A DNA stretch of 64,000 bases from Leifsonia xyli (GTDB taxonomy: Bacteria; Actinomycetota; Actinomycetes; Actinomycetales; Microbacteriaceae). Under the pieces are notes generated by a model. The model searched no databases. It saw only the letters and a list, made by a program, of their open reading frames with translations, and was not told the origin of the DNA. The translations under genes were made by a program, and so were the position numbers. How positions within the stretch are numbered: position 1 is the first letter of the stretch; each line of letters opens with the position of its first letter. Below are positions 42,790-61,306 of this stretch, piece by piece. The stretch is from the NCBI GenBank assembly GCA_001647635.1, contig CP014761.1:1984001-2048000 (forward strand). The letters run 5' to 3'.

Positions 42790-43380
42790 ATGGACCACCT
42801 CGACGACTCCCCTGCGGCACCGCCGAGCCTGGTTCGAGTCGGCGGGCTCACCCGCGACAAACTGATTCGGACGCTGGGCGACCACGGCGTTGAGCTGAAC
42901 GCCCATGCCTCGACGTTGCTCGAGCACCCGATGTTCGAACGGCGCGAGCCGGAATCCGTTCACGTCGTCACGGTGACTCTCGACCAGATCGGGTTGCCAG
43001 ACGGCGGTACGTTGCCGGAGGTGTTCGAGGCGGCCGGCGAACGCGGCCTGGAGCTGTGCCCGCCAGACACCGCCCCGTACTTTCGGTTGGCATGGATGTC
43101 CCAGCCGAATGCACCAGATTCGGTCCTCTCCGCCGGACGGTCACCGGCCGGTGCTGTCAAGGTCGCGGCCGCACCGTTGAGGATCGAGGTCGAGTTTCCG
43201 AAAGGCTTCTACCTACGGGTCGTGGACCACCAGCGCTGGCTACGCGGATACCGGTGCGACGACGAGTACGCCTTCACTGCGGAGGACCGATTCGTCTTCC
43301 GCGCCGCGCCCAAACGGCACTCTCGGCCGATGGCGGAGTTGCGGCACAGACGCGGACAGTCGCCGATGAGTGCTATCTGA
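42790..43380 (+). CDS. Conserved hypothetical protein
   Basis: In this 196-residue protein the pattern VGGLTRDKLIRTLGDHGVELN, VTLDQIGLPDGGTLPEVFE, PYFRLAWM, then FPKGFYLRVVD and WLRGYRCDDEYAF is shared with a widespread uncharacterised bacterial family. No catalytic residues are evident. The function is unknown. It has normal GC bias and appears intact, and may mark re-entry into functional DNA after the island debris. Confidence 0.7.
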   Translation: MDHLDDSPAAPPSLVRVGGLTRDKLIRTLGDHGVELNAHASTLLEHPMFERREPESVHVVTVTLDQIGLPDGGTLPEVFEAAGERGLELCPPDTAPYFRLAWMSQPNAPDSVLSAGRSPAGAVKVAAAPLRIEVEFPKGFYLRVVDHQRWLRGYRCDDEYAFTAEDRFVFRAAPKRHSRPMAELRHRRGQSPMSAI

Positions 43381-43391
43381 GGGGTGTCCAG

Positions 43392-43484
43392 GTGCGGCCG
43401 TACGAACGAGTGGTCTACATCGTTCTGACGGTTGTCGCGATTTTAGTCGGGTTGAAAGTTGAAGGCGTCTGCGCATCCCTATAA
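43392..43484 (+). CDS. Possible 30-residue single-helix membrane peptide
   Basis: GTG at 43392 with GAGGGG 8-9 bp upstream encodes MRPYERVVYIVLTVVAILVG followed by LKVEGVCASL. There is one clear membrane helix after a basic start. It ends 3 bp before the operator at 43488. The call rests on ribosome site and composition alone. Confidence 0.4.
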   Translation: MRPYERVVYIVLTVVAILVGLKVEGVCASL

Positions 43485-43487
43485 CGC

Positions 43488-43501
43488 TTGCGGGATCGCA
43501 A
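43488..43501. promoter_or_regulatory. MarR-type operator TTGCG-N4-CGCAA, site 1
   Basis: TTGCGGGATCGCAA lies upstream of the cation antiporter gene (43620). It is flanked by extended symmetry, GCTTGC/GCAAGC. The same 14-bp design recurs at 45407, 47014 and 48298. Confidence 0.65.
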
Positions 43502-43619
43502 GCAATAAATGTACTCGCGCGGCGGGCTAGTGCAAGGACCTCCCGGACATCGCGATCAGCCGTAACGTTCACGACATGATGAGAGAGATGGGAATCGGCA
43601 TCGACTCAGGATCACCCGC

Positions 43620-44684
43620 GTGAACGCCTGGCCGATGTGGTTGCTAGTGCTGATATTCGTGGGCGCCGCAGCGGTGATATGGGTCGCTGGGATCCAACTC
43701 TCGCGCACCACAGACGTGCTCGACTCGCGCCTTCACATCGGAAGCGCCCTCGGCGGCCTGATCGTTCTCGCGGTGGCGACCAACCTCCCCGAAATCGCAA
43801 TCACGGTCAGCTCCGCGCTATCAGGCGACCTTTCCGTTGCGCTCGGCAACATCCTCGGCGGCATTGCGCTGCAGACCGTGGTCCTCGTGATCTTGGACGG
43901 CTTCGGCAAAAGAGGAAAGGGCGTCCGACCTCTCACTTACCGAGCAGCATCGCTCGTTCTGGTACTCGAGGCGGTGGTGGTTGTCGCGGTGCTGGCGATT
44001 GTGATGGCCGGCAGCCAGCTTCCGTCCCTGGTGTTCTTCCGTCTGACCCCCGACGTTATCCTGATCGCCGCGGTGTGGGTGATCGGGCTCCTGCTAGTCA
44101 AACGAGCGGGGCGAAATTTGCCTTGGGAGCAAAAGGGTAACGCGCCCGACGCCTCCCCGCACACGGCCGGGCACCGTCGCAGTAAGCCCGAGGCGCCTCA
44201 CCGAAACTGGAGCACCGGCCGGGTGTGGCTCGTGTTCGTGGTTTCGGCGCTTGCCACCCTCGCGGCCGGTGTCGCACTGGAGGTCAGCGGGGATGCCGCG
44301 TCGAAGCAGGTGGGGCTGTCGGGTGTCCTTTTCGGCGCCACTATCCTCGCGCTCGCGACCTCGCTCCCGGAGATCTCGACGGGCCTACAGGCAGTCAAGC
44401 AGGGCGACGACAACCTCGCGATGAGCGACATTTTCGGCGGAAACGCGTTCCTACCTGTTCTGTTCCTCGTCGCCACGGTGATCTCCGGGCGCGCTGTGCT
44501 GCCACACGCGAACGCCAGCGACATTTACCTGACCGCCCTGGCCGCACTGCTTACCCTCATCTACAGCGTTGGGCTCGTGTTCCGGCCCACGAAACGAATC
44601 CTCGGCATGGGCATCGACTCGGTGGCGGTATTGCTGGTCTATTTGCTCGGCATCGCAGGCCTCTTCACGGTCGCCACCAGTTGA
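43620..44684 (+). CDS. Calcium/sodium:proton antiporter family (CaCA, YrbG-like)
   Basis: This 354-residue membrane protein consists of two inverted repeats of five helices each. The alpha-motif occurs twice, as GGLIVLAVATNLPEIAITVSS (core ATNLPEIA) and GATILALATSLPEISTG, and the paired NILGG and DIFGGNAF segments follow. These glutamates bind the exchanged cation. A hydrophilic His/Lys-rich loop (about 180-200) joins the halves. It probably expels Ca2+ or Na+. The GTG start at 43620 has AGGA upstream. MarR operator site 1 lies 119 bp upstream. Confidence 0.85.
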   Translation: MNAWPMWLLVLIFVGAAAVIWVAGIQLSRTTDVLDSRLHIGSALGGLIVLAVATNLPEIAITVSSALSGDLSVALGNILGGIALQTVVLVILDGFGKRGKGVRPLTYRAASLVLVLEAVVVVAVLAIVMAGSQLPSLVFFRLTPDVILIAAVWVIGLLLVKRAGRNLPWEQKGNAPDASPHTAGHRRSKPEAPHRNWSTGRVWLVFVVSALATLAAGVALEVSGDAASKQVGLSGVLFGATILALATSLPEISTGLQAVKQGDDNLAMSDIFGGNAFLPVLFLVATVISGRAVLPHANASDIYLTALAALLTLIYSVGLVFRPTKRILGMGIDSVAVLLVYLLGIAGLFTVATS

Positions 44685-45110
44685 GAGAGCAGCACTAGCG
44701 AGCTCGGGAGGCGTGCGACGTGCCCGATCTCTCCTTCGCGGTCGTCGTCACACCGTAGGCCGTAATGGGTCATGGGAGTCGTTCGGCATTCCTGTAGGCG
44801 CCGTTGCCATACGCACACCTGTTGGCGCTCCTTTTCGGACCCATCGTGGAGGCCTTCCTGGTATTGCTGCCGGCCCGCCCCGCTACCAATGCGGTTTCGG
44901 TTGGACGCTCCGGCTTGTTACACCGCGCAGTTCATGGGCGTCCGACCGAACGATATCGGTCGGACTCTCTAACGATCGTTACCCACGTCGATGAGCCACG
45001 CCAGGAAAGTCTGATCCAGTGAGCTTGGACCAGGAATCGCACTTGGGACGCGACTAGACGCTTGGCACGGCCGGGCGAGCGACGGCCGCCCGGCCCCCCC
45101 CGATGTGCAC
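44685..45110. other. Gene remnant and palindromes, no intact gene
   Basis: GGGAGG at 44706 precedes a GTG that opens MPDLSFAVVVTP and then stops. Further on, one frame gives LALLFGPIVEAFLVLLP, so this may be a broken small membrane-protein gene. Two palindromes follow: TCCGACCG-N8-CGGTCGGA (44941-44964) and TAACGATCGTTA (44970-44981). Confidence 0.4.
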
Positions 45111-45389
45111 TTACTCGCGGTGCTCATGTTCCGCGCGAGGGTGCGTGCCGCGCTCGTGTGTCTCGTGCTCGGCCTTCGGGTAGTTGCCACTGCGAAGGTG
45201 CGAGCTGCGCACCAGGGGCTCTGAACCGTCCCGCTCTGAACCGACATAAGCTCCGACGATGTCCCCCTCGGGACCGGGATGCCCCTCCGACTCGGTGTAC
45301 TGCCCGTGCACATCGCGTGGTTCGGCAATCTCGGGCTCAGCCTGGGTATACCGGCCCTCGACCTGGTCACGCCCTTCTGCCTCGACCAT
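45111..45389 (-). CDS. Small acidic hydrophilic protein (92 aa)
   Basis: It starts MVEAEGRDQVEGRYTQAEPE and ends with His/Glu-rich HERGTHPRAEHEHRE. It is highly charged, with no hydrophobic core, and is likely disordered; the composition recalls stress hydrophilins. The strong GAGGAGG site fits the ATG at 45389 better than those at 45395 or 45398. It is divergent from marR with the operator at 45407-45420 between. Confidence 0.65.
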   Translation of the reverse strand: MVEAEGRDQVEGRYTQAEPEIAEPRDVHGQYTESEGHPGPEGDIVGAYVGSERDGSEPLVRSSHLRSGNYPKAEHETHERGTHPRAEHEHRE

Positions 45390-45406
45390 GACCATCACCT
45401 CCTCAA

Positions 45407-45420
45407 TTGCGATAGCGCAA
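45407..45420. promoter_or_regulatory. MarR-type operator TTGCG-N4-CGCAA, site 2
   Basis: TTGCGATAGCGCAA lies 18 bp from the acidic-protein start and upstream of marR. The palindrome extends one base each side (A/T). A near copy, TTGCTCGCTCGCAA, lies at 45491-45504, before the marR start. Confidence 0.7.
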
Positions 45421-45528
45421 TCATCCCACCGGCCAGCGAATCGCGGAAGATCGGTCGAGGTCGAAAAACAGGCTGCGGATCAAGCAAATGTTGCTCGCTC
45501 GCAAGCAATCCGCGATACAACTGAAAGT

Positions 45529-46023
45529 GTGGATGCTCGAAACGACTCGCGGCAGGGTGTGGATGCCGCACTCCTCGCGGCGGACGTGATGATGGGCGTT
45601 GCGGCGCGCTCCGTACTTGAGGTCGAGGACATCGTCACCTCTCCCCAGCTGCGTGTGCTTGTGACAATCGCCACCAGGGGCCCGCAGAACCTCGGTGAGA
45701 TCGCAGCGGAGCTCGGCGTCCACGCCTCTAATGCGACTCGCACCTGCGAGAAGCTCGTTGGCGCGGGCCTGATCGCCCGGTCAGAAGATCCCGCCGACCG
45801 ACGATTCGTCCAGTTATCGCTGACGCAGCAGGGTGAGGCGCTCGTCGACCGAGTAATCAGCCACCGGCGATCCGCCCTTGCTAATGTGCTCGCGGCGATG
45901 GAGCCCAACCAACGTGCAGCTGCGACCGATGCCTTCCGAGCGTTCGCCCAGGCGGCGGGTGAAGAGCACGGCGGTGATGGCCGGTTCACCCTGGTGCGCC
46001 CCCACGAATCGACGGATAGGTAG
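45529..46023 (+). CDS. MarR family transcriptional regulator
   Basis: This protein of about 164 residues has a dimer helix (VDAALLAADVMMGVAARSVL), HTH (NLGEIAAELGVHASNATRTC) and wing (DPADRRFVQLSLTQQG). The start is uncertain between GTG at 45529 and GTG at 45559. It lies among four exact copies of TTGCG-N4-CGCAA, two of which flank divergent promoters. The simplest reading is a local repressor of itself and the neighbouring units. The signal is unknown, and no conserved Cys is present in the core. Confidence 0.85.
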   Translation: MDARNDSRQGVDAALLAADVMMGVAARSVLEVEDIVTSPQLRVLVTIATRGPQNLGEIAAELGVHASNATRTCEKLVGAGLIARSEDPADRRFVQLSLTQQGEALVDRVISHRRSALANVLAAMEPNQRAAATDAFRAFAQAAGEEHGGDGRFTLVRPHESTDR

Positions 46024-46044
46024 CATCGCGTCGCCGCGACATCG

Positions 46045-46845
46045 CTAGGCCGCGCCGCACCGTGCACACGCGCCGGGAGTTTCCCGGCACCGTGCACACG
46101 CGCCGGGAGTTTCCCGCATCGCACCGCATTCGGGGCAGACGGATCCAAGCCAGCACGCCGCATCCCCACCCTCCGGCTCATCCACATGTGTCTGCCGGAC
46201 GGCCGCCGCGCGCAGTGCGGAGCCGCGAGCGCCGAGCGGCTCGCCGATCCCGAAGTAGTGGCGGAAGCTGTACACGATCGGCTGCCACGCCAGCGGGTCG
46301 ATATGATCGCCGTCGCGGACAATCCGTGGGTCGGCGTGCACCCGGAGGACCTCGGCCTCCGTGATCGCGTAATCGCCGGTCACGCCCGGCGTCACCCGCC
46401 GCACCTCTGCTTCCAGCTGCAGCAGGCACTCACTCACCCGCGGCGGGTCAACCAAGTCCGAAGGCTGAGGGGTCAATCCCGCAGCGGCGAACTTGTCAGA
46501 GCTATACGCATACCGGCTGGCCTTCGCCTCCGGCACATCGGCCCGTCCAGTCAGATCCGCGATCCGCTCGACAGCCGGCCACAGCGGCGGCGACGGAAAA
46601 TTGACCGTGAGCTGCGGGCGCTCACGAACGTTGGCGAGCGTGTGCCCATCGGTCTCGAGCCCGAGCGCGAGCATCCGGCCGAGCGCCCAGTACGAGGAGG
46701 CCGGCGCGAGATTCGCGCTGCCGTCCTCGTTGCGCGAGGCGAGCAGAAGCACCGGTGTGCCGACATAGAGGATCGCCGGGTGGACCACCCGGTGCACGCC
46801 GAACCCCCCGGCCGCACCCTCCCGTGCCGCATCAGTGTCGGCCAT
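46045..46845 (-). CDS. Flavin-reductase-like (FMN-binding split barrel) protein with C-terminal Cys repeats
   Basis: In this 266-residue protein the split-barrel domain has HPAILYVGTPVLLLASRNEDGS (core YVGTPVLLLASRNEDGS), ERPQLTVNFPSP and DYAITEAEVLRV. This fits flavin reductases or flavin-dependent oxidoreductases of the DIM6/NTAB type. The C-terminus adds CPEC followed by two identical RETPGACARC units, a likely zinc-binding tail. Those two units come from a 30-bp exact tandem duplication. It is divergent from aquaporin, with operator site 3 between. GGAGGGG precedes the ATG. Confidence 0.8.
   Translation of the reverse strand: MADTDAAREGAAGGFGVHRVVHPAILYVGTPVLLLASRNEDGSANLAPASSYWALGRMLALGLETDGHTLANVRERPQLTVNFPSPPLWPAVERIADLTGRADVPEAKASRYAYSSDKFAAAGLTPQPSDLVDPPRVSECLLQLEAEVRRVTPGVTGDYAITEAEVLRVHADPRIVRDGDHIDPLAWQPIVYSFRHYFGIGEPLGARGSALRAAAVRQTHVDEPEGGDAACWLGSVCPECGAMRETPGACARCRETPGACARCGAA
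46057..46116. repeat. 30-bp exact tandem duplication in the flavoprotein 3' end
   Basis: Two identical 30-bp units (46057-46086 and 46087-46116) each encode the ten residues RETPGACARC in frame. The duplication adds one CxxC pair and keeps the reading frame. Confidence 0.85.
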
Positions 46846-47013
46846 CTCGCGCCGACCCCTCCAGTGCAGCGAAGGCGTCAGCTGCCCCCGAGCGCGACAA
46901 CTTCCCAGCTGCCCCTCGAAGGACTGACCAGGTCTGCCCGTCCAAGCGACCCCGTCGACCTCCAGCACGCGTCACTGTCATCCCTTATCCTTTATCCATT
47001 GTCGGAGACTTCA

Positions 47014-47027
47014 TTGCGCAATCGCAA
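47014..47027. promoter_or_regulatory. MarR-type operator TTGCG-N4-CGCAA, site 3
   Basis: TTGCGCAATCGCAA lies 62 bp before the aquaporin ATG in the divergent flavoprotein/aquaporin space. A further TTGCG half-site follows at 47031-47035. Confidence 0.7.
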
Positions 47028-47088
47028 ACGTTGCGTAACACTTATCATATCGACGTGGTGACACGCCGCTTCCACTTGGAGGTGCGGA

Positions 47089-48069
47089 ATGTCCGATGAC
47101 ACGATCCCTGTCCTCGTCCGAGGCTGGGGGCTCAAACGCCGGAGCGGGCTGTGGGGCGAGTGCCTCGCGGAGTTCCTCGGAACCTTCGTCCTCATCGCGT
47201 TCGGCGACGGTGTCGTCGCGATGACCGTCGCCGCGCTCCCAGGATCCGGCCGCACCGAAGGTCCGACAACATTCTTCCTGAGCGCCGGCGACTGGCTGCT
47301 CATCACCTGGGGCTGGGCGATGGCGGTCGTGTTCGGCATCTACGTAGCCGGCGGCGTCAGCGGCGCCCACCTCAACCCGGCAGTGACTCTGGCGTTCGCG
47401 GTGCGGCGCCGCTTCGCTTGGGCGAAAGTGCTCCCGTACATGCTCTCGCAGGTGCTTGGAGCGTTCGTCGGCGCGGCACTGGTGCTCGGGGCGTACGCCG
47501 CGGCGATCGGCGCCTTCGACACGGCAAGCAAGGGCCCGAAGGTGAACGGACACACCCTCGCATCCTTCTCGATCTTCGCCACCTTCCCAGCGCCCTACTA
47601 CGACGGGAACATGTGGGGACCGCTGTTCGACCAGATCGTGGGGACGATGTTCCTCGTGCTCCTCGTGGTCGCAGCCATCGACCTGCGCAACACCGCCGTG
47701 CAATCAAACCTGGGACCGTTGATCATCGGCTTCGCGGTAGCCGCGATCGGCATGTCCTACGGCGCCAACGCGGGGTACGCGATCAACCCTGCCCGCGACC
47801 TCGGCCCGCGGCTCCTGGCCTGGATCGCAGGCTGGGGGAATCTTGCCGTTCCGGGCGACGGGCCATGGTTCAGCGGGTACATGTGGGTGCCCATCCTCGG
47901 GCCACTGATCGGTGGCGTGATCGGCGTCCTCGTCTACGACCTTTTCGTCGGCGACATCCTGCACGCCCGCCTACTGCGCGCCGGCCGACCCGCCCCCGAG
48001 GCGGCCGGACCTCCCTACCAGCCACCGGGACCAGACACCGAGGAACCCCAGGCGCGTCCCCCCGCCTGA
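47089..48069 (+). CDS. Aquaglyceroporin (MIP family, GlpF-like)
   Basis: This 326-residue protein has six helices. The two NPA boxes are at 96-98 (GAHLNPAVT) and 233-235 (GYAINPARD). The Asp after the second box (D238 region, NPARD) marks glyceroporins rather than water-only channels. It has a Pro-rich cytosolic C-terminal tail of about 30 residues. It facilitates glycerol or other small polyol diffusion and may help osmotic adjustment. GGAGG lies before the ATG at 47089. MarR operator site 3 lies upstream. Confidence 0.9.
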   Translation: MSDDTIPVLVRGWGLKRRSGLWGECLAEFLGTFVLIAFGDGVVAMTVAALPGSGRTEGPTTFFLSAGDWLLITWGWAMAVVFGIYVAGGVSGAHLNPAVTLAFAVRRRFAWAKVLPYMLSQVLGAFVGAALVLGAYAAAIGAFDTASKGPKVNGHTLASFSIFATFPAPYYDGNMWGPLFDQIVGTMFLVLLVVAAIDLRNTAVQSNLGPLIIGFAVAAIGMSYGANAGYAINPARDLGPRLLAWIAGWGNLAVPGDGPWFSGYMWVPILGPLIGGVIGVLVYDLFVGDILHARLLRAGRPAPEAAGPPYQPPGPDTEEPQARPPA

Positions 48070-48297
48070 GGCGCCGGTCGACGCTGACCGGCAGGACCCG
48101 ACAGGGAGGAGCAGTCCACGACTTCTCCCTGTTCGGCGTCCCTCGGCGAACGCGCTGGTCGTCAAACCAAACAGCGACACGGCGACGTCGCAGGCGAGGC
48201 CGACGCGGCCTCCATCCTCGGCAGTGCAAGCACCCCTCTCCCGTGACGCAAGCAGATGGTCCTTGTCACGGAAATCCGTGAGGAAACTCCAAAACGG

Positions 48298-48311
48298 TTG
48301 CGCACGCGCAA
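48298..48311. promoter_or_regulatory. MarR-type operator TTGCG-N4-CGCAA, site 4
   Basis: TTGCGCACGCGCAA lies 37 bp before the GTG of the SDR gene that opens the large oxidation operon. The rest of the 279-bp space after the aquaporin holds no gene that I can support. Confidence 0.7.
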
Positions 48312-48348
48312 ACAAGTGGTTCAGTGGGCAGCAGACGAGGAGGAATGT

Positions 48349-49116
48349 GTGGACCTGAAGAACATGAGCGTCGTGGTGACCGGGGGCAACAGTGGGATCG
48401 GGGCGGCCATCGTCCGCTGTCTGGCGTCGGCGGGAGCGGCGGTCGTCATCGACTATGTGGCGCGACCAGTCGACACCGCTGACCTCGTGAAGGACATCAC
48501 CGCACAGGGTGGGCGCGCCGTCGGCGTCGAAGCCGACGTGAGCACGGTCGCCGGGATCGACAAGCTGATCCAGACCGCCGTCGACGAGTTCGGCCGTCTG
48601 GACGCCTTCGTCAACAACGCCGGGATCGAGAACCGGCACGGCATCCTCGACGTCGATGAGAAGACGTTCGACGAGGTCATGGCCGTCAACCTCAAGAGCG
48701 CGGTGTTCGGCACTCAGCGGGCCGCCAAGCGCTTCATCGAGCAGGGCGGCGGAGGCGTCGTCGTCAACATCTCCTCCGTGCACGAGGACTGGCCCATGCC
48801 CGGCAACTTCACCTACTGCGTGTCGAAGGGCGGGATGCGGATGCTCACCCGGACCGCCGGCGTCGAACTCGGCCCCCACAAGATCCGGGTCGTGAACGTC
48901 GCGCCCGGCGCCGTGAACACGCCGATCAACGCCGACACCATGAAGGACGACGCGCTCCGGCAGAAACTGCAGAACAGCATCCCGCTGCGCGAGATCGCCG
49001 ATCCGTCCGAGATCGGGGGCGTAGTGGCGTTCGTCGTCTCGGACGCCGCCGCGTACATGACGGCGACCACGGTCTTCGTCGACGGCGGCATCATGCAGGG
49101 AAGTGTCGGGCTGTGA
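48349..49116 (+). CDS. SDR oxidoreductase (glucose 1-dehydrogenase-like)
   Basis: This 255-residue classical SDR has the cofactor motif TGGNSGIG, NNAG, catalytic Ser in NISSVHEDWPMPG and YCVSK. The PMPGNFTYCVSKGGMRMLT stretch is typical of glucose/ribitol dehydrogenase-type SDRs. The GTG at 48349 has GAGGAGG upstream; a longer frame to 48256 is not conserved. It is the first gene of a seven-gene coupled operon, and its stop overlaps the GH15 start. Confidence 0.87.
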   Translation: MDLKNMSVVVTGGNSGIGAAIVRCLASAGAAVVIDYVARPVDTADLVKDITAQGGRAVGVEADVSTVAGIDKLIQTAVDEFGRLDAFVNNAGIENRHGILDVDEKTFDEVMAVNLKSAVFGTQRAAKRFIEQGGGGVVVNISSVHEDWPMPGNFTYCVSKGGMRMLTRTAGVELGPHKIRVVNVAPGAVNTPINADTMKDDALRQKLQNSIPLREIADPSEIGGVVAFVVSDAAAYMTATTVFVDGGIMQGSVGL

Positions 49117-50918
49117 CGGGCAGCCGGATCGAGGACTACGCCATGATAGGCGACCTCCACACGGCCGCGATAGTCGCCGCCGACGGGTCGATCGACTGGC
49201 TGTGTCTGCCGCGGTTTGACTCCCCCGCCTGCTTCGCCGGGCTCGTGGGCACCGAGGACGCCGGACGGTGGCTGATGGCGCCCGTCGACGGCGGCCGATG
49301 CACGCGCCGACGTTACCGCGGCGACACGCTCGTCCTGGAGACGGAGTGGGAGACGGCGGACGGTCACGTCCGCGTCATCGACTTCATGCCCGTGCGCGAC
49401 GAGGTGGCCGACCTGGTGCGCATCGTCGAAGGCGTGTCGGGGACGGTTCCGATGCGCACGGAGCTGGTGCTCCGGTTCGACTACGGCCAGATCGTGCCCT
49501 GGGTGACCAAGACGGAGTCCGGCGTCCGCGCGGTGGCGGGACCGGACGCGGTGCTGGTGACCGCTGATGTGCCGCTCGAGGGGCGCGACCTGAGGACCGT
49601 GTCCGAGTTCACCGTCGAGCCGGGCGACCGCGTCGCCTTCGTACTGACCTGGTTCCCCAGCCACGACCCGGAGCCGACCCCGGCGGACGCGGAGGAGACC
49701 CTCGCGGCGACGGAGCTGTTCTGGAGCCGGTGGAGCGCGAAGAGCACCGCGTACGGCCCGCACAAGGACGCCATCCAGCGCTCGCTCGTCACGCTCAAGG
49801 CCCTGACCTACGCCCCAACGGGCGGCATCGTCGCCGCGCCGACCACTTCCCTTCCGGAGCAGCTCGGCGGCCCGCGCAACTGGGACTACCGCCTCTGCTG
49901 GCTGCGGGATGCGACGCTCGCCCTGCAGTCGCTGCTCACGGCCGGGTACACCGAGGAGGCCAGTGCCTGGCGCGACTGGCTCGTACGCGCGGTCGCCGGC
50001 GATCCGGCCGACCTGCGGATCATGTACGGGCTCGACGGACGCCGCCGCCTTCCAGAGGAGACGATCGACTGGCTCCCCGGCTACGAGGGGTCGCGACCCG
50101 TGCGCGTGGGCAACGCCGCTTCGGATCAGCTGCAACTGGATGTCTGGGGCGAGGTGCTCGACGGCCTCTCGCTCACGCGGTCCACGATCGGGTCCGGCGA
50201 CGACGACGCCTGGAACGTCCAGCTCAGCCTGATCGAGCACTTGGCCGAGCGGTGGAAGGAGCCCGACAACGGTCTCTGGGAGATGCGGGGCCCGCAGCGC
50301 CATTTCACGTACTCCAAGGTGATGGCGTGGGTCGCGGTGGACCGCATGATCGACGGCGCCCGCACGTACGACCTGCCGGGGCCGGTGCGGCGCTGGGAGC
50401 GGATGCGGGCCGAGATCCGTCGCGACATCCTCGCCAACGGCTACGACGCGAAGCGGAACACGTTCGTGCAGGCGTACGGCTCGGACGAGTTGGATGCGTC
50501 GCTGCTGCTGATCCCGCGGGTGGGCTTCCTACCGCCCGGCGACAAGCGGGTGATCGGGACCATCGACGCCATCCAGGAGGACCTCACCGAGAACGGGCTC
50601 GTCCTCCGCTATCGACCGCAGGCCAGCGACGACGGGCTTCCGGGCGGGGAGGGCGTGTTCATCGCCTGCTCGTTCTGGCTGGTGGACGCGCTCATCGGCG
50701 CCGGTCGACGCGAGGAGGCGGAGGCGCTGTTCACCCGACTGCTGGACCTCCGCAACGACGTGGGGCTGCTCAGCGAGGAGTGGGAACCGTCAAGCGCGCG
50801 GCAGCTGGGCAACATGCCGCAGGCGTTCAGCCATTTCGCGCTCATCCGGAGCGCCTTCCACCTGCTCTCGGGCGACGCCACCACGACGCATCAGACCATC
50901 CCGATCGGTGAGGAGTGA
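49113..50918 (+). CDS. Glycoside hydrolase family 15 protein (trehalase/glucoamylase-like)
   Basis: In this 601-residue protein the N-terminal beta-sandwich begins IEDYAMIGDLHTAAIVAADG. The (alpha/alpha)6 barrel has GGPRNWDYRLCWLRDA, PDNGLWEMRG (general acid Glu) and LLSEEWEPSSARQLGNMPQAFSH (core SEEWEP, catalytic base Glu). Actinobacterial members include trehalases, so it may release glucose from trehalose or a storage glucan. No signal peptide is seen, so it should act in the cytosol. The GTG overlaps the SDR stop (GTGA). Confidence 0.88.
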   Translation: MTGSRIEDYAMIGDLHTAAIVAADGSIDWLCLPRFDSPACFAGLVGTEDAGRWLMAPVDGGRCTRRRYRGDTLVLETEWETADGHVRVIDFMPVRDEVADLVRIVEGVSGTVPMRTELVLRFDYGQIVPWVTKTESGVRAVAGPDAVLVTADVPLEGRDLRTVSEFTVEPGDRVAFVLTWFPSHDPEPTPADAEETLAATELFWSRWSAKSTAYGPHKDAIQRSLVTLKALTYAPTGGIVAAPTTSLPEQLGGPRNWDYRLCWLRDATLALQSLLTAGYTEEASAWRDWLVRAVAGDPADLRIMYGLDGRRRLPEETIDWLPGYEGSRPVRVGNAASDQLQLDVWGEVLDGLSLTRSTIGSGDDDAWNVQLSLIEHLAERWKEPDNGLWEMRGPQRHFTYSKVMAWVAVDRMIDGARTYDLPGPVRRWERMRAEIRRDILANGYDAKRNTFVQAYGSDELDASLLLIPRVGFLPPGDKRVIGTIDAIQEDLTENGLVLRYRPQASDDGLPGGEGVFIACSFWLVDALIGAGRREEAEALFTRLLDLRNDVGLLSEEWEPSSARQLGNMPQAFSHFALIRSAFHLLSGDATTTHQTIPIGEE

Positions 50919-50921
50919 TCG

Positions 50922-52271
50922 ATGAGCGTGCCGCACATCCTCGTCCTCGGCGCCGGCTTCGCCGGGTTCACCGTGGCACGCGAGCTTCGCCGGGATGCCG
51001 CCTCCCACCGCATCCGGCTGACGGTGGTCGATCCGCAGCCCTTCCTGACCTACAAGCCGCTGCTGCCCGAGGTCGCCGGCGGTGAGACGCAGGCGCGCGA
51101 CAGCGTCGTGCCGTTGCGCCGGCCGCTCCGGGACGCCGACCTGGTGTCCGGATCCCTCGCGTCGCTGGACCCGGACGCGCGCATCGCGGTGGTCCGCTTC
51201 CTCGACGGCACCGAGCGCGCCGTCCACTACGACCATGTCGTCCTCGCCGTCGGCGCGGTGACGAAGACCCTGCCGATCCCGGGGCTGGCGGAGAACGCGA
51301 TCGGCTTCTCGAGCGTCGGCGAGGCGGCCTACCTCCGCGACCATGTCCTGGGCCGCATCCGCTTCGCCGCTGCGACCGGCGACCGCGCCGAGCGCCGCCG
51401 CGCGCTCACCTTCGTCTTCGTCGGCGGCGGCTACACCGGCGTCGAGGCGATCGCCGAGCTGCAGCGATCGGCCGCCGGGGAGCTCGACCGATACCCGGAG
51501 CTCGACGGCGAGGCGATGGAGTGGCTCCTGGTCGAAGCCGCAGACCGCATCGCCGCCGAGCTCACCGAACCGCTCTCCGCCTGGACCCTCCGCCTGCTGC
51601 GGCGCCGGGGCATCCGGGTGCTGCTCGAGACCGAGATGACGAGCTGCGAGAACGGGATCGTCGCTTTGAACAACGGCGAGATGCATCCCGCAGACACGAT
51701 CGTCTGGGTCGCCGGCGTCACGCCCAACCCGGTGCTCGACCGCACGGACCTGCCGCGGGGACCGAGGGGGCACGTGCGGTGCGACACCTGTCTCCGGGTC
51801 GTGCGCGACGACGACACCCCGGTGGCGGGGGCGTGGGCGCTCGGCGACGTCGCGCAGGTGCCCGACCTGACGGCATCGAAGCAGCCGGCCTACTACCCGC
51901 CGAATGCGCAGAACGCGATCCGGCAGGCCCGTGTCCTCGCCCGGAACCTGAGGCTGGCGCTCGACGGCCGCGCGCCGGAGGAGTACCGGCACCGGTCGCT
52001 CGGCACGCTGGCCAGCTATGGCGGCATGCGCGGAGCCGCGGTGCTTCGAGGCGTCCCCCTTCGCGGGCTTCCGGCGTGGGCTGTCGACAAGGTGTACCAC
52101 GCACTGGCCCTGCCGAGCCCAGGCAGGCGGGTGCGACTGATCCTCGGCTGGATCGGCAACGGGCTGACCCGGCGGGATCCGGCGCCCGTCGACGTCTTCG
52201 CCGACCCGGCGGAGCCGTTCCGCAGCGCGGCGCAGGCGCAGGCGCAGAAGAAAAAGGAGGACGACGGATGA
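50922..52271 (+). CDS. Type II NADH dehydrogenase-like FAD oxidoreductase, second copy
   Basis: This 449-residue protein has an N-terminal FAD motif VLGAGFAGFTVARELRRD, NAD(P) motif FVGGGYTGVEAIAEL and FAD C-terminal segment AWALGDVAQVPD. It is paralogous to 5425-6762. It probably passes electrons from NAD(P)H to quinone; the C-terminus is amphipathic with a Lys/Gln tail. It would connect dehydrogenases of the operon to respiration. It is coupled to the next gene by ATGA. Confidence 0.88.
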   Translation: MSVPHILVLGAGFAGFTVARELRRDAASHRIRLTVVDPQPFLTYKPLLPEVAGGETQARDSVVPLRRPLRDADLVSGSLASLDPDARIAVVRFLDGTERAVHYDHVVLAVGAVTKTLPIPGLAENAIGFSSVGEAAYLRDHVLGRIRFAAATGDRAERRRALTFVFVGGGYTGVEAIAELQRSAAGELDRYPELDGEAMEWLLVEAADRIAAELTEPLSAWTLRLLRRRGIRVLLETEMTSCENGIVALNNGEMHPADTIVWVAGVTPNPVLDRTDLPRGPRGHVRCDTCLRVVRDDDTPVAGAWALGDVAQVPDLTASKQPAYYPPNAQNAIRQARVLARNLRLALDGRAPEEYRHRSLGTLASYGGMRGAAVLRGVPLRGLPAWAVDKVYHALALPSPGRRVRLILGWIGNGLTRRDPAPVDVFADPAEPFRSAAQAQAQKKKEDDG

Positions 52272-52726
52272 GGACGCGCACTCCCGCGCGCACCACGGTC
52301 CACGGGATCGACCGGATGGTGCGCAACGTCGAGACCGGCCGCTTCGAACGGTCCCTCTCGGCTCTGACGGCGGCGGGGTCGCTGGTGACGGCGGCCGAGA
52401 TCTACTTCGAGCACGACAAGGCGAGCTTCGGCAACCCGTGGATGTGGGCTCCGGTCGTCCTCGGCCCGGTGGGCGCCATCGCGGGCGTCGCCGGCGTGTT
52501 CAGCAAGCGCGCCGCCAAGACGCTGCTCCCCGTCGCCGCGGCGACCATCGTCGCGAACGGCCTGCAGGGGACCTACCTGCACGCCCGCGGGATCGGCCAG
52601 AAGCCCGGCGGGTGGCGCAACCTCCGCTACAACATCGAGATGGGACCGCCCCTGCTGGCTCCGCTCCTGGTGACGATGGTCGGCGGAATGGGGCTGCTCG
52701 CCGCGATCCTGAGGCGCGAGAAGTGA
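52268..52726 (+). CDS. Small membrane protein of the oxidation operon
   Basis: This 152-residue protein has three or four predicted helices (LTAAGSLVTAAEIYF, WAPVVLGPVGAIAGVAGVFS, LLAPLLVTMVGGMGLLAAI). The soluble N-terminus carries GIDRMVRNVETGRFERSL. No enzyme motif is seen. Position between NDH-2 and the dehydrogenase subunits suggests a membrane anchor or quinone-side partner. It overlaps both neighbours by 4 bp. Confidence 0.75.
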   Translation: MRTRTPARTTVHGIDRMVRNVETGRFERSLSALTAAGSLVTAAEIYFEHDKASFGNPWMWAPVVLGPVGAIAGVAGVFSKRAAKTLLPVAAATIVANGLQGTYLHARGIGQKPGGWRNLRYNIEMGPPLLAPLLVTMVGGMGLLAAILRREK

Positions 52727-53366
52727 GCACGCCGCCCGTCGAGCGCGGGACGTCCGTGCCCGTCCGCTTCCCCGGGTTCCGCGTGCTCGATCAGGCGGAT
52801 CACTGGGACGACGCCACCCGCGCGGTCGTGCTCGCCCGCGTCGGCCGCCCCTCCGACATCCGCTTCTTCGACGTCGCCGAGCAGGCTGCGGCGACCGCGC
52901 TGTTCGACGAGCTGCTCGACCAGGAGGGCAACGGCCGCGTCCCGATCACCGCACTGGTGGACGCGCGGCTCGCCGAGAGCCAGACCGACGGCTGGCACTA
53001 CGACAGCATGCCCACCGACGGGGATGCGTGGCATCTCACCCTCGCCGCGCTCGACGACGACGCACGCGAGGCCCACGGCTGCACCTTCGCCGAATGCGAC
53101 CGCGGCGCGCGCCGCGCCCTGCTCGAGACGATCCGCACCGGGGACGGCGACTGGCGCGGCTTCCACCGCGGCCAGGTCTGGAGCCTGTGGACGCGCTACG
53201 CGTGCACCGCCTTCTACAGCCACCCGGACGCCTGGGACGAGATCGGCTTCGACGGTCCGGCGTACCCGCGCGGCTACAAGAACCTCGGCGTCGGCAAGCG
53301 CGAGCCCTTCGAGGTCGCCGACGCGCATCCCGCCGAGCTGCCCGCCACCCGGGTCGGGGGAGGATC

Positions 53367-53370
<4 letters not shown>
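52723..53370 (+). CDS. Gluconate 2-dehydrogenase subunit 3-like protein
   Basis: This 215-residue protein resembles the small subunit of membrane-bound GMC-type dehydrogenases (FDEL...DQEGNGRVPITALVDARL, YKNLGVGKREPFE). It pairs with the GMC gene that follows with a 4-bp overlap. The usual twin-arginine signal of periplasmic members is absent, so the complex may be cytosolic. It is likely needed for assembly or maturation of the large subunit. Confidence 0.8.
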
Positions 53371-55006
<1,636 letters not shown>

Positions 55007-55022
<16 letters not shown>

Positions 55023-56841
55023 GCGAATTCGTGATCGGCCGGCTCCGGGAGTGGGGCGTGCGACGCGTCTTCGGCTACCCGGGCGACGGGATCGGGGAAT
55101 TCGACGGGATGCTCGGCAAGGCGGAGCGCGCGGGTGAGGGCCTCGAGTACATCCGTCCGACGCACGAGGAGATCTGCGCCTTCATGGCCACTGCGCACGC
55201 CAAGTTCACCGGAGAGGTCGGCGTCTGCATCGCCACCTCCTCCCCGGGCGGCTTCCACCTGATGAACGGCCTCTACGACGCGAAGATGGACAACCAACCG
55301 GTTGTCGCGATCGTCGGCCAGCAGGGCCTGAACGCGTTCGGCACGTTCAACCAGCAGGAGAGCAACCTGGAGCAGGCGTTCTCCGACGTCGCCGAGTACG
55401 TCCAGACCATCGTCTCGCCCGAGCAGGCGCAGGCGGTCGTCGACACCGCGTTCCGCACCGCGATCACGCGCAAGCAGCCATGCGTCATCATCCTGCCGCA
55501 CGACGTGCAGAGCATGAAAATGGCCGAGCCCGGCGCCGAGATGTGGGTCTCGCGCTCGAGCGCGGTCGCGCCCTCCACCGCCATCGCCCCGCCCGCCGAG
55601 CAGCTGCAGGCGGCGGCCGAGATCATCAACGCCGGGTCCCGCGTGACATTCCTCGTCGGAGCGGGCGCGGTCGGCGCCACCGAGGAAGTGCTGCAGGCGG
55701 CGCGGCTTGCCGGCGCCGGCGTCATCACCAGTCTGCGCGGCAAGCAGGTCGTGCCCGCCGACGTCCCGTTCCACACCCAGCAGGTGGGCCTGCTCGGGTC
55801 GCGCCCGAGCTACGACCAGATGCAGGACTGCGACACCCTGGTGCTGCTCGGCACGAACTACCCCTACGGGCAGTTCCTGCCGAAGACCGGCCAGGCGCGC
55901 GCGGTCCAGATCGACATCCGGCCCGAGCAGCTCGGCCTCCGCTACCCGACGGAGGTGAGCATCTGGGCGGACGTGAAGACCGCCCTGGCCGGCCTCCTCC
56001 CCTCCTCCGCCAGAAGGACGACCTGTCCTGGCAGGAGAAGGTCGCCGACAACATGCGGGACTGGGACGCGGAACTCGCCGCCCAGGCGGAGAACCACTTC
56101 GACGACGGGGTCAACCCGCGCAAGGTGTACGCCGAGCTGAACAAGCGCCTCCCCGCCGGTGCGATCGTCACGTGCGATGCCGGCACCACTGCCGACTGGT
56201 ACGGCCACTACATCCGCTTGCGCGACGGGATGCGCGGCGACCTCTCCGGCCGCCTCGCCTCCATGCTCGCGGCGATGCCCTACGCGGAGGCGGCGAAGTT
56301 CGCGTATCCCGACCGGACGGTGGTGTGCACGATCGGCGACGGCGCCTTCCAGATGCTCGGGATGAACGAGCTAATCACACTGAAGAAGTACCTGTCGAAA
56401 TGGGACGACCCCACCTTCGTCGTGGTCGTGCTCCACAACGACGACCTGACCCAGGTGTCGTGGGAGATGCGCACCGAGGACGCCAACCCGGTCTGGCCGA
56501 CCTCGCAGGACGTGGAGTCCGTCGACTACGCCGGATGGGCGCGGCTGCTCGGCTTCCAGGGGATCACCGTCACCTCCGACGACCAGATCGAGGCCGCCTG
56601 GGACACGGCGCTCGCGCACCGCGGCGTGACCGTGATCGACGCGCACACGGGGAAGAACATCCCACCGCTTCCACCGCACATCACGTACGAGTTCGCGAAG
56701 AACACCGGACTCGCGCTGCTGAAGGGCGACCCGAACGGCATCGGCGCGATCAAGGACTCCGCCGCATCGCTCATCACCGAGGGGGTGGAGCGGGCGAAGG
56801 ACGCGCTGCACATCGACCACGACCACGACCATGGGAACTGA
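55007..56841 (+). pseudogene. Thiamine-pyrophosphate enzyme (pyruvate oxidase/acetolactate synthase-like), frameshifted
   Basis: The N-terminal part (VFGYPGDGIGEFDGML, Glu in RPTHEE) reads from the ATG at 55007. The C-terminal TPP-binding part (TIGDGAFQMLGMNELI with GDG, VVLHNDDLTQVSWEMR) reads in another frame. Adding one C in the run at 55991-56010 joins the frames into a continuous product of about 611 residues ending DHDHDHGN. The gene is therefore either recently inactivated or affected by a sequencing error. The His/Asp-rich tail could bind metal. It overlaps GMC and is the last gene of the operon. Confidence 0.8.
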
Positions 56842-58024
56842 TGACGGGGCGCGGCTCCGCGCCATCACGACGGATGCATTCGACGTCCCCACTGCTACCG
56901 GTGGGCGCGAACGGCCTGAAAGCGACGGCACAATCACCTGGAACTCGACCGGCCTGATCGTTGTGAGGCTGTCCGCAGGCGACGAAACCGGGCTCGGTTT
57001 CACCCACGCCCCTACCGCCGCTCTCGGAATTATCCGCGACGTCCTCTGGCCGATCATCGACGGGATGGACACCCGCGACACCGAACGTCTCTTCTGGGCG
57101 ATGGCTCGCGCCGTCCGCAACATCGGGTGGCGTGGCCTGTGCGCGAGCGCAATCGCGGCCGTCGACATCGCCGCGCACGATCTGGCCGCTCGGCTCGCCG
57201 GAGTACCGCTGAGGTCTTACCTTGGCGGAGCGCGCGACTCCATCGCCGCCTACGGCAGCGGAGGCTTCACCGACTACACCGACCGAGAACTGACCGAACA
57301 GCTGAGCTCCTGGGCCGAGCACGGACTCCGCGCCGTGAAGATGAAAGTCGGCTCCCAGCCGGACGACGACCCGCGCCGCGTCGCCCTCGCCCGCGAAGCC
57401 ATCGGCCCCGACGTCGAACTCTTCGTCGACGCGAACGGCGCCTACGAGCGCAAGCAAGCCCTCCACCTCGCTGATCGATTCGCAGACCTCGGCGTCACCT
57501 GGTTCGAAGAGCCCGTGTCCAGCGACGACCGCACCGGTCTGCGCCTGCTCCGAGACAGGATGCCCGCACCGATCCGAGTCGCCGCCGGCGAGTACGGGTA
57601 CACGCCCGCCGACTTCCGCGACCTCGTCACGCCAGGATGCGTCGACGTACTGCAAGCCGACGCCACCCGATGTGGCATCACCGGGTTCCGCGTCGCCGCC
57701 ACGCTCGCGCGCACGTACGGCATCCCGCTCAGCGCCCACACAGCTCCCGCCTTACACGCCTCCGTGGCCGCCGCGTTCGAGGGCGCGATCAACGTCGAAT
57801 ACTTTCACGATCACGCCCGCATCGCCGGAGCCTTCTTCGACGGGGTCCCGGCCCTACGCGATGGCGACCTGGTACCCGACCGGGCAGCCCCCGGACACGG
57901 GCTCGAGCTCAAAGAAGCCGATGCCCGCCCGTATCGGGTCGCATCCTTCACCCGCGCAACTGACCCGAGCGCGCCCGGCGAAGCGCTCGACAACCCGAAA
58001 CAACAACGAGGAGGAACGAGATGA
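56831..58024 (+). CDS. Enolase-superfamily enzyme (mandelate racemase/muconate lactonising family)
   Basis: In this 397-residue protein the barrel carries the acid/base pair K170/K172 in VKMKVG, metal ligands D200 (VDANGAY), E226/E227 (FEEP) and E254 (AGEYGY), D277 (QADATR) and H303 (SAHTAPALHA). The KxK plus His arrangement favours a dehydratase or racemase acting on a sugar acid or related carboxylate. It starts within the last 11 bp of the TPP enzyme and overlaps the next gene by ATGA. Confidence 0.87.
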   Translation: MGTDDGARLRAITTDAFDVPTATGGRERPESDGTITWNSTGLIVVRLSAGDETGLGFTHAPTAALGIIRDVLWPIIDGMDTRDTERLFWAMARAVRNIGWRGLCASAIAAVDIAAHDLAARLAGVPLRSYLGGARDSIAAYGSGGFTDYTDRELTEQLSSWAEHGLRAVKMKVGSQPDDDPRRVALAREAIGPDVELFVDANGAYERKQALHLADRFADLGVTWFEEPVSSDDRTGLRLLRDRMPAPIRVAAGEYGYTPADFRDLVTPGCVDVLQADATRCGITGFRVAATLARTYGIPLSAHTAPALHASVAAAFEGAINVEYFHDHARIAGAFFDGVPALRDGDLVPDRAAPGHGLELKEADARPYRVASFTRATDPSAPGEALDNPKQQRGGTR

Positions 58025-58794
58025 CGTACCGGCTGGTTCAGCTTCCCAGCGGCCGAGAAGTGGGCATGACCGGTCTCGGCGACCCCGCCGGTGAACGCCT
58101 AGCAGTGCTCCTCCACCCGACACCCGGCGCGTCCGGCTTCGACCCTGCACCCGATGTCACGGCGCGCTCTGGCCTCCACCTGCTGACCTTCGAACGTCCC
58201 GGCTACGGGGCAACCGAACAAGAAATCATCAGCGTCACCCAATGGGTGGACGACCTCGCCGGGTACCTGCGCGAAGCTGAGGCAAGCGCACGAGAGCGGC
58301 CAGCGCAGACCAACTACGGCGGAATCGGCGTCATCGGCTGGAGGGAAGGTGGAATCTACGCAGCCGCACTTGCCGCCCGTCACCCACGCCTGGTCAATCG
58401 GCTTGTCCTAGTGGCGGCGCCCGCCCCGTCGCGAGCGGCGAACGCGCACGCCTTTCAGGCCGAATTGACACTTACCCGCGCGTCCGACGGGCCGCTCGGT
58501 TACCCCGACCGCGTGCAGCGGATGCTCGAAACCGCGTTCACACAAGGGGACGCCGGAACCATCGCCGATCATCACGCGTTCGAAGAGCCCATTCCGGCGC
58601 CGCTGCAGGTCAGAGCCGAGACTCTCATCCTGTACGGGACCACGGACGCCTACGCGACCGTGCACGACGCACAGTGGTACGCTCACGTCGCCTCCCGCGC
58701 ACGAGTCGAACGGGTTACCGGTGCGGCAGATATCATCGGGCGACATTGGCAGCGCATCACCGACTTCCTCAACCCTGAACCTACCTCCGAATGA
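58021..58794 (+). CDS. Alpha/beta-hydrolase-fold protein without nucleophile
   Basis: This 257-residue protein keeps the fold landmarks (VLLHPTPGASGF, FERPGYG, LILYGTTDAYATV). In the nucleophile elbow, however, GxSxG reads GWREG, with R108 where Ser, Cys or Asp is expected. The usual His segment is ADIIG near 236-240. It is therefore probably not a classical hydrolase and may be a binding or regulatory protein. It is coupled to the enolase-superfamily gene by a 4-bp overlap. Confidence 0.8.
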   Translation: MTYRLVQLPSGREVGMTGLGDPAGERLAVLLHPTPGASGFDPAPDVTARSGLHLLTFERPGYGATEQEIISVTQWVDDLAGYLREAEASARERPAQTNYGGIGVIGWREGGIYAAALAARHPRLVNRLVLVAAPAPSRAANAHAFQAELTLTRASDGPLGYPDRVQRMLETAFTQGDAGTIADHHAFEEPIPAPLQVRAETLILYGTTDAYATVHDAQWYAHVASRARVERVTGAADIIGRHWQRITDFLNPEPTSE

Positions 58795-59606: not shown

Positions 59607-60221
59607 ATGTCACTGGCGACGGATACCGAGGAGGAGGACGCGGCCCTGGAGCCGGTCCCGGGTCCCTGGGCGGGTGCGATCGACCGGCACAGAGCGGAGG
59701 CGGCGATCGTCGAACTGCTCTCGGCGCTCGGCCGAGACACGGCCGGCCCGCAAGTGGCCGACACCCCGCGGCGCGTCGCAGCCGCCTACGCCGAGATGCT
59801 CGACGCCACGCCGCTCCGGATGACGACGTTCCCGAACGACGAGGGCTACGACGACCTCGTCCTGGTGCGCGACATCCCGTTCACCTCGCTCTGCGCCCAC
59901 CATCTGCTGCCCTTCCGCGGCGTGGCCCACGTCGGCTACCTGCCGGCGGGCAGGCTCCTCGGGCTCTCCAAGCTGGCGCGCGTCGTGGAGCACTTCTCCC
60001 GTGACCTGCAGCTGCAAGAGAGGCTCACCATGCAGGTGGCCGACTTCCTCGACGAACAGCTCGAGCCGCGCGGCGTCGGGGTCGTGCTCGAAGCCGAGCA
60101 CCTCTGCATGTCGGCCCGTGGCGTCAGGGCGGCCGGCACGCTCACACGCACCTCCCGGTTCACCGGCGAGCTCGCCGGCCCGGGACGGGAGCTCTTCACA
60201 GAAAGGACGGCAGGACGATGA
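59607..60221 (+). CDS. folE: GTP cyclohydrolase I (FolE)
   Basis: In this 204-residue protein the zinc ligands are C96 and H98/H99 in SLCAHHLLPF and C167 in EHLCMSARG. GYLPAGRLLGLSKLARVVEHF is the substrate-pocket segment. It converts GTP to dihydroneopterin triphosphate, the entry to folate or pterin cofactors. Its place with transaldolase and a cysteine-containing regulator suggests a second, conditional copy rather than the housekeeping one. CGAGGAGG precedes the ATG. Confidence 0.92.
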   Translation: MSLATDTEEEDAALEPVPGPWAGAIDRHRAEAAIVELLSALGRDTAGPQVADTPRRVAAAYAEMLDATPLRMTTFPNDEGYDDLVLVRDIPFTSLCAHHLLPFRGVAHVGYLPAGRLLGLSKLARVVEHFSRDLQLQERLTMQVADFLDEQLEPRGVGVVLEAEHLCMSARGVRAAGTLTRTSRFTGELAGPGRELFTERTAGR

Positions 60222-61306
60222 ACGCCATCCACGAACTCCGCGCCGCAGGGGTCAGCATCTGGCTGGACGACCTCTCCCGCGACGACATCGTCTCCGGGCG
60301 GCTCGCCGACCTCGTCGACGCGCACGGCGTGACCGGCATCACCACCAACCCGACCATCTTCGCAACCGCGCTGGAGAAGCACCCGGAGGCGTACGCCGAT
60401 CAACTCGCCTCCCTCCGCGCGAGCGGCGCGGGCGCCCGCGAGGCGGCGCTCGCCCTCGTCACGGACGATGTGGGCGCCGCGTGCGACATCCTGCGGCCCG
60501 TCCACGAGAGCACGGGAGGCGCGGAGGGCTTCGTCTCGATCGAGGTGACCCCGGACACCGCGCACGACGTCGAGGCGACCCTGGCCGAGGTGCGTGAGCT
60601 GAGCGGCCTGGTCGATCGACCGAACCTGTTCGTCAAGATTCCGTCGACCGACGCCGGCATCCTGGCGCTGGAGGAGGCGACCGCCGAGGGCTTCAGCATC
60701 AACATGACCCTGTTGTTCGGCATCCCCCGCTACCGCCAGGTCATCGCCGCCTACCGGCGCGGGCTCGAGCGTGCGCGTGCCGCGGGCGCAACGCTCGCGG
60801 GCATCCACTCCGTCGCCTCGTTCTTCGTCTCCCGGGTCGACGTCGAGGTCGACACCCGGCTGGACGCGCTGGGGACGCCGGACGCGAACGCGCTGCACGG
60901 CCGCGCCGCCGTCGCCAACGCCCGGCTGGCCTACGCCGAGTTCGCCGCATCACAGGAGGACCCGGTCTGGCGGGCGCTCGCTGAGGCCGGTGCCAACCCG
61001 CAGCGGCCGCTGTGGGCGTCGACGGGCGTGAAGGATCCGGGGATGCGCGACACACGCTACATCGAGGACCTCGTCGCCCCGCTCGTCGTTGACACGATGC
61101 CTGCGAAGACGCTGCAGGCGGTCGAGGACCACGGGCGGATCGTCCCGGACAGCGTCAGCGCGGGGATGGCCGACGCGCGCGAGGTCGTCGACGCGCTCGC
61201 GTGGGCCGGCGTCGCGTTGGACGACGTGTCCGCGCACCTGGAGCAGAAGGGAATCATATCGTTCGGCGACTCGTGGGAACGCCTCGTCGCGGCCGTCACC
61301 CCATGA
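60218..61306 (+). CDS. tal: Transaldolase
   Basis: This 362-residue protein is typical of actinobacterial transaldolases. It has GVTGITTNPTIFA near the N-terminus, the Schiff-base lysine in NLFVKIPST and SVASFFVSRVDVEVD. It moves a dihydroxyacetone unit between sugar phosphates of the pentose phosphate pathway. The ATG overlaps the folE stop (ATGA), so the two are translationally coupled, an unusual partnership. Confidence 0.9.
   Translation: MNAIHELRAAGVSIWLDDLSRDDIVSGRLADLVDAHGVTGITTNPTIFATALEKHPEAYADQLASLRASGAGAREAALALVTDDVGAACDILRPVHESTGGAEGFVSIEVTPDTAHDVEATLAEVRELSGLVDRPNLFVKIPSTDAGILALEEATAEGFSINMTLLFGIPRYRQVIAAYRRGLERARAAGATLAGIHSVASFFVSRVDVEVDTRLDALGTPDANALHGRAAVANARLAYAEFAASQEDPVWRALAEAGANPQRPLWASTGVKDPGMRDTRYIEDLVAPLVVDTMPAKTLQAVEDHGRIVPDSVSAGMADAREVVDALAWAGVALDDVSAHLEQKGIISFGDSWERLVAAVTP

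Follow-up and report, generated by a model that had tools for sequence, protein, structure and literature searches.

E. coli MarR operators carry TTGC half-sites, and operators of the MarR/SlyA type are inverted repeats with T-T near their ends. A similar inverted repeat, the palindrome TTGCG-N4-CGCAA (TTGCGNNNNCGCAA), surrounds a gene for a MarR-family protein at 45529-46023 of a 64,000-nucleotide stretch of the Leifsonia xyli genome (contig CP014761.1, positions 1,984,001 to 2,048,000; hereafter the window), but spacing and targets differ from those in E. coli. The SlyA site, TTAGCAAGCTAA, differs from the palindrome too (PMC8070244, excerpt). The closest solved relative of the Leifsonia protein is Rv1404 of Mycobacterium tuberculosis (PDB 2nyx; residues 11-160, E 2.8e-24), reported to regulate acid tolerance as a MarR-type protein (PMC6536590, excerpt), whose recognition-helix stretch reads VQPSATGR as against VHASNATR in Leifsonia. 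PA3458 of Pseudomonas aeruginosa, another MarR-type protein, is tied to osmoadaptation, and its sites often lie just downstream of the -10 box; unlike TTGCG-N4-CGCAA, its motif, TTHGNASDSRAARDA, is no strict palindrome (both points from an excerpt of PMC8070244). CrtR of Corynebacterium glutamicum, also of the MarR type and with reported homologues in Leifsonia, is autoregulated and acts at a divergent promoter; it differs in its motif, TTAA, and in having carotenoid genes as targets, and on the strength of that motif we rejected the window MarR as a CrtR (PMC6739363, excerpt).

As a MarR regulon, the system is of a known kind. In the open-licence literature, we found no description of the motif or of a Leifsonia or Microbacteriaceae MarR regulon of this sort, and nothing on point linking MarR with aquaporin and glucoamylase, or Leifsonia with trehalase and aquaporin. 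The operator, the gene set and their duplicated wiring seem undescribed so far. Regulator, operator and gene set are testable together, and our searches of that literature met no such regulon for the genus.

Judging from sequence comparison, the protein encoded at 45529-46023 is very probably a dimeric repressor of a TTGCG-N4-CGCAA regulon with four promoter units, autoregulation, wiring into a second cluster and a quinone-linked role. As an earlier note on this DNA had reported, the window contains four exact copies of the palindrome, each 5' of genes, and no further exact copy in its 64 kb. The first (43488-43501) lies 118 bp 5' of the start of an antiporter gene. The second (45407-45420) precedes the ATG of a gene for a small acidic protein by 17 bp, with a -10-like box, GATGAT, leading into it from the acidic-gene side. 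The third (47014-47027) stands between a flavoprotein gene and an aquaporin gene, 61 bp 5' of the aquaporin start, while the fourth (48298-48311) heads an oxidation operon, 37 bp 5' of the start of its short-chain dehydrogenase (SDR) gene. A copy with one mismatch at 45491-45504, also known from the earlier note, lies 24 bp 5' of the GTG chosen as the (uncertain) start of marR, and three more such copies came to light at 34457, 53382 and 57139. With up to one mismatch allowed, the window therefore has eight sites against 2.9 expected, a number reached in 1 of 100 shuffles. Among the 5-N4-5 palindromes of the window alone, CGCCG (7 copies), CGACG (6) and CGGCG (6) are all more frequent than TTGCG (4); that is, TTGCG is distinguished by its placement and conservation, without an excess in raw number.

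In the proposed mechanism, a MarR dimer would bind TTGCG-N4-CGCAA with one half-site per subunit, leaving the AT-rich centre unread, and would block RNA polymerase at the promoters of the antiporter, acidic-protein/marR, flavoprotein/aquaporin and SDR-GH15-NDH2-GMC-PoxB units. An effector that lowers the affinity of MarR would switch on all units together, and the site directly in front of marR would serve autoregulation. The same operator code would mark a second, long-diverged cluster with its own MarR, as well as a third MarR with a near-match site. The output would be an alternative energy programme: direct oxidation of sugars and pyruvate into the quinone pool, accompanied by water and cation transport.

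The regulator itself (164 aa, forward strand, assigned by alignment) carries a MarR domain above the curated cut-off (PF01047, 60.3 bits vs 24.6; PF12802 likewise above). It is the only protein with a DNA-binding domain among the 14 scanned for 42790-58794, 13 of them from the window and one from the second cluster (copy b) standing in for a thiamine-diphosphate (TPP) enzyme, which bears out the earlier note on this point. By sequence comparison, the protein shares the family trait of having palindromic operators beside marR and at neighbouring promoters. Of the named NCBIfam MarR equivalogs (Rv0880, MprA, HpaR, MarR, SlyA and others), 12 matched but none reached its cut-off, the best being Rv0880 (45.4 vs 220). 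MarR proteins of the OhrR type are thiol switches with a conserved N-terminal reactive cysteine; we rejected this type, as the N-terminal cysteine is missing and the sole cysteine, residue 73, varies among relatives (C, S, A, G or others). Since this only cysteine also sits in the recognition helix, a thiol switch is unlikely. Directly behind marR, at about 46057-46116, a direct repeat of ∼30 bp is present in two head-to-tail copies.

A MarR relative is encoded by 19 of 40 relatives (E<=1e-20), by at least 14 of 398 sampled genomes of the family (E<=1e-35) and by at least 9 of 396 sampled genomes of the order (E<=1e-30), the latter two figures being lower bounds because at most nine candidates were scored per genome and the genomes are samples of a larger group. 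In all, 301 relatives were found at E<=1e-15, with 120 among the matches listed; the named records encoding one are four from Leifsonia and two from Subtercola. We assembled 31 MarR loci (563,506 bp), comprising all places at E<=1e-35 from the 40 relatives and the family genomes plus one Subtercola locus, and counted 56 exact sites vs 2 for the reversed pattern (48 vs 2 in the 28 loci left after removing the own genome). An exact site lies within 450 bp upstream of marR in 23 of the 31 loci, and in 27 when the distance is extended to 9 kb (or to the end of the fetched piece). In raw 5-N4-5 counts, TTGCG (56) comes third after CGGCG (62) and CGCCG (57). In the 300 bp upstream of marR, however, it is the commonest palindrome (22 of 31 loci), followed by ATTGC-N6-GCAAT (8), which is partly the same element. 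The N4 centre is 68% A+T within DNA of 69% G+C and takes 31 different forms in the 56 sites. One-mismatch sites at the same distance from marR as 45491 recur in copy b and in G024a.

The individual targets follow the same pattern. For the antiporter, an exact site is found 113-137 bp 5' of the same gene in copy b, G008a and G012a. Of the seven aquaporin genes in the 40 genomes, five have an exact site, one a one-mismatch site and one (G029) none, and the 11 SDR genes divide into two with an exact site, five with one mismatch and four without. For the acidic gene, an operator stands in front of 20 of the 21 close copies if one mismatch is allowed: among these 21 matches in the genus (E<=4e-13, including the two own copies), an exact site precedes the start by 14-20 bp in 17 cases, three copies have a one-mismatch site and one, in G003, has no site. 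G003 also lacks a MarR at E<=1e-20 and any exact site genome-wide, and its acidic-gene upstream region resembles a decayed operator; similarly, the upstream region of a siteless SDR gene looks decayed in G018, a genome without the MarR. Among 18 weaker matches to the acidic protein (E 4e-10 to 6e-7), a second family in the genus, loci were available for nine, of which none has the operator. Distal sites fetched from relatives (n=20) lie before acidic-gene copies (3), inside predicted open reading frames (ORFs; 9) or between genes (8). Sites in relatives also occur near genes for nitronate monooxygenase, an alpha/beta hydrolase, the ATP-synthase a subunit, a chlorite-dismutase-like protein, cytochrome-oxidase subunit I and GGDEF proteins, not each of which need be a target.

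Could these palindromes instead serve a different regulator, encoded elsewhere, with MarR as just one more of its targets? In favour of such a regulator stands G013, which retains the exact acidic-gene operator but whose MarRs are only 37-39% identical to the window protein. Yet the number of sites follows the presence of MarR across 25 genomes of the genus, with a mean of 4.8 exact sites where an orthologue is encoded (n=15) vs 1.3 where it is not (n=10; P 3.5e-5, or 4.7e-5 without the own genome), and 7.4 and 8.1, respectively, for the reversed control. The sites also stay beside the MarR gene in otherwise differing gene neighbourhoods, and Micrococcales relatives that share the recognition helix are preceded by sites with at most one mismatch. 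That helix reads H(A/P)SNATR in 30 of the 31 loci. In 18 further comparisons (17 more distant MarRs, plus G029 again), a nearby upstream site, exact or with one mismatch, accompanied 5 of 8 proteins with a SNATR, SNASR or SNAAR helix and 0 of 10 with another helix, a one-mismatch match 379 bp upstream in L106 being excluded; the Fisher P of 0.0065 flatters this contrast, because the compared sequences are related. We therefore regard another regulator as improbable.

Several observations do weigh against MarR as the reader of these sites, G013 being one of them. Four of the 31 loci (G000c, G016, G029 and G418) lack an exact site within 9 kb, albeit G000c and G016 show one-mismatch sites in front of marR; in G029, the helix is the deviating HPSNAAR. 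The SDR genes of G008b, G016 and G020 have no site within 400 bp, even at one mismatch, despite a MarR orthologue in the genome, and among the more distant proteins, L103 shares the helix without having a site and L106 has only the distant one. In addition, the promoter boxes discussed below were judged by eye. Nevertheless, the shared-operator core of the MarR regulon suggested in the earlier note is strongly supported by the 27 of 31 loci, by site counts that track the regulator and by the decayed-looking sites, and we retain MarR as the repressor that probably acts through them.

Repression is the likely mode of action, because the sites abut likely promoters. All 17 exact acidic-gene sites are entered by GA(T/C)(A/G)(A/C)T, a -10-like box whose final T is shared with the operator, and a GGAGG-like sequence follows downstream in those shown; with a box before the site and this sequence after it, a bound dimer would occupy the transcription start. 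MarR might instead activate at some sites, or act in both modes depending on position, and the unequal distances to the acidic ATG (17 bp), the aquaporin (61) and the antiporter (118) would fit such a scheme. At the acidic gene, where a promoter box is visible, the site nonetheless covers the region after the -10, a repressing position, and we give activation little credence.

The full-genome scan that the earlier note had proposed yielded 10 exact sites in 3,596,761 bp (a single contig) vs 4 for the reversed-pattern control. Four are those of the window, four belong to the second cluster, and the other two (1577249 and 2997308) were set aside as lying inside predicted ORFs. These ORFs were called with a crude score of GC by codon position, and 1577249 falls right at the border of its ORF. 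At the genome-wide rate, four exact sites in 4.8 kb have a P of about 1e-9, for a stretch picked after seeing it. Allowing one mismatch gives 87 places genome-wide vs 217 for the control, and for this reason one-mismatch sites were counted only with positional or conservation support. That a frequent palindrome was simply over-read by eye is suggested by the ∼3.6 exact copies per genome expected from independent bases, by the 2 of 10 copies inside ORFs and by the GC-rich palindromes that are commoner in the loci, but with 8 of 10 copies in two paralogous regions and the sites recurring at fixed spacing before the matching promoters of relatives, we take chance to be refuted as the origin of the full set, while single weak sites could be due to chance.

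The paralogous cluster, copy b, lies 0.6 Mb off in inverted orientation, with its exact sites at 2643964, 2655235, 2656822 and 2660235. Its proteins are 90% (antiporter), 79% (MarR), 93% (aquaporin), 82% (SDR), 80% (GH15), 76% (NDH2), 90% (GMC) and 95% (enolase type) identical to those of the window, and its acidic gene (57%) is found at the opposite cluster end with an exact site still in front. The copy b SDR gene has a one-mismatch site 39 bp 5' of its start plus an exact site 396 bp upstream. At identical residues, third codon bases agree between the clusters in only 50% of cases for the antiporter and 49% for marR, and in 58-60% for aquaporin, SDR, GH15 and NDH2; the regulator-bearing half has thus lost much silent similarity, and despite this divergence both copies have exact sites 5' of the genes for the antiporter, the acidic protein and the aquaporin/flavoprotein pair. 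Silent agreement climbs to 70-86% in the stretch that begins with the subunit-3 gene and closes the operon, with 86% at the enolase-type gene, a gradient that would fit recombination between the copies in their 3' part. A tree of MarR proteins groups copy b with G008a and G012a and places the window protein as sister to that group (support 99/94 and 99/95), so that the clusters either split before the G008a and G012a lineages or one of them was acquired from a relative.

A third MarR paralogue (68% identity; G000:C1:1768905-1769357, in L050 and L059) has no cluster genes nearby (within ∼9 kb), and a one-mismatch site ends 42 bp 5' of its aligned start. Given this near-match site and the code shared by the second cluster, the regulators probably cross-bind. 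The part of the earlier note that spoke of a compact regulon around one regulator hence did not hold up, since the genome harbours another cluster, complete with four exact sites and a MarR gene, besides a third MarR elsewhere. More tentatively, the diverged 15-kb copies and the third repressor may form a single circuit on one operator code, in which interchangeable MarR paralogues would jointly switch quinone-linked sugar and pyruvate oxidation, with the acidic G-x-Y family as its hallmark output; we consider this possible but doubtful. The clusters do offer a natural case of how duplicated regulators and operators stay matched, or decay after regulator loss, and tie a hitherto unnamed acidic protein family to the proposed MarR switch.

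As to the genes, the first unit encodes an Na+/Ca2+-exchanger-family antiporter of 354 aa (43620-44684, forward strand; PF01699, E 1.2e-21, above cut-off). The small acidic protein (92 aa; 45111-45389, reverse strand, with the ATG at 45389 as the preferred start) has conserved, repeated G-x-Y modules, with invariant G and Y positions across 31 sequences; it has no Pfam match and 47 homologues at E<=1e-3, the named ones from Leifsonia. The third site separates a flavin-reductase-like protein (46045-46968, reverse strand; start uncertain, 46048-46845 scanned; PF01613, E 8.9e-14) from an aquaporin/MIP-family channel of 326 aa (47089-48069, forward strand; PF00230, E 3e-51; TIGR00861 above cut-off).

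The oxidation operon, all on the forward strand, has eight ORFs rather than the seven genes counted earlier. It begins with the SDR (48349-49116; PF13561), which is glucose-1-dehydrogenase-like (NCBIfam PRK07231 'glucose 1-dehydrogenase', above cut-off), and a GH15 hydrolase with a trehalase-like N-terminal domain (49113-50918; PF00723 and PF19291 above cut-off), for which no solved relative was found at E<=1e-10. These are followed by a pyridine-nucleotide-disulphide oxidoreductase (50922-52271; PF07992, E 6.8e-40), whose name NDH2 is taken from the earlier note and is given by no above-cut-off model. A gluconate 2-dehydrogenase subunit 3-like protein (52438-53370; PF13618, E 9e-15) precedes a GMC oxidoreductase (53367-55022; PF05199, PF00732; solved FAD-glucose dehydrogenase 6a2u, E 1.8e-49), likely its dehydrogenase partner. 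The PoxB-type TPP enzyme (55007-56841) is frameshifted near 56,000 relative to the intact 611-aa homologue of copy b, possibly a sequencing error, as the shift falls at a run of C. The copy b protein resembles E. coli PoxB over its full length (3ey9, residues 1-578, E 7.1e-79); it misses the curated PoxB model PRK09124 (357 bits vs cut-off 792) and passes PRK08273 'TPP-requiring protein' (757 vs 724). Last come an enolase-superfamily enzyme of the mandelate racemase/muconate lactonizing type (56831-58024; PF13378, PF02746; 3cyj, E 2.1e-95) and, as a weak assignment, an alpha/beta-hydrolase-like protein (58021-58794; PF00561, E 1.1e-4, 22.4 bits vs cut-off 25.8).

The solved relatives, namely PoxB, FAD-glucose dehydrogenase and 3cyj, suggest quinone-linked oxidation. 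By family membership, the enzymes would feed quinones, GH15 would supply glucose, and channel and antiporter would serve osmotic balance; the stress or osmotic-redox role put forward earlier was a guess from gene content. In copy b, an in-frame stop interrupts the subunit-3-like gene (G000:C1:2649844-2650713; L011 9845-10714) after ∼40 codons of the compared stretch, and each cluster copy may thus lack a different gene. Scans of the window with Rfam (gathering thresholds) and for tRNAs gave no matches. Behind the oxidation operon lie genes for GTP cyclohydrolase I and transaldolase (59607-61306).

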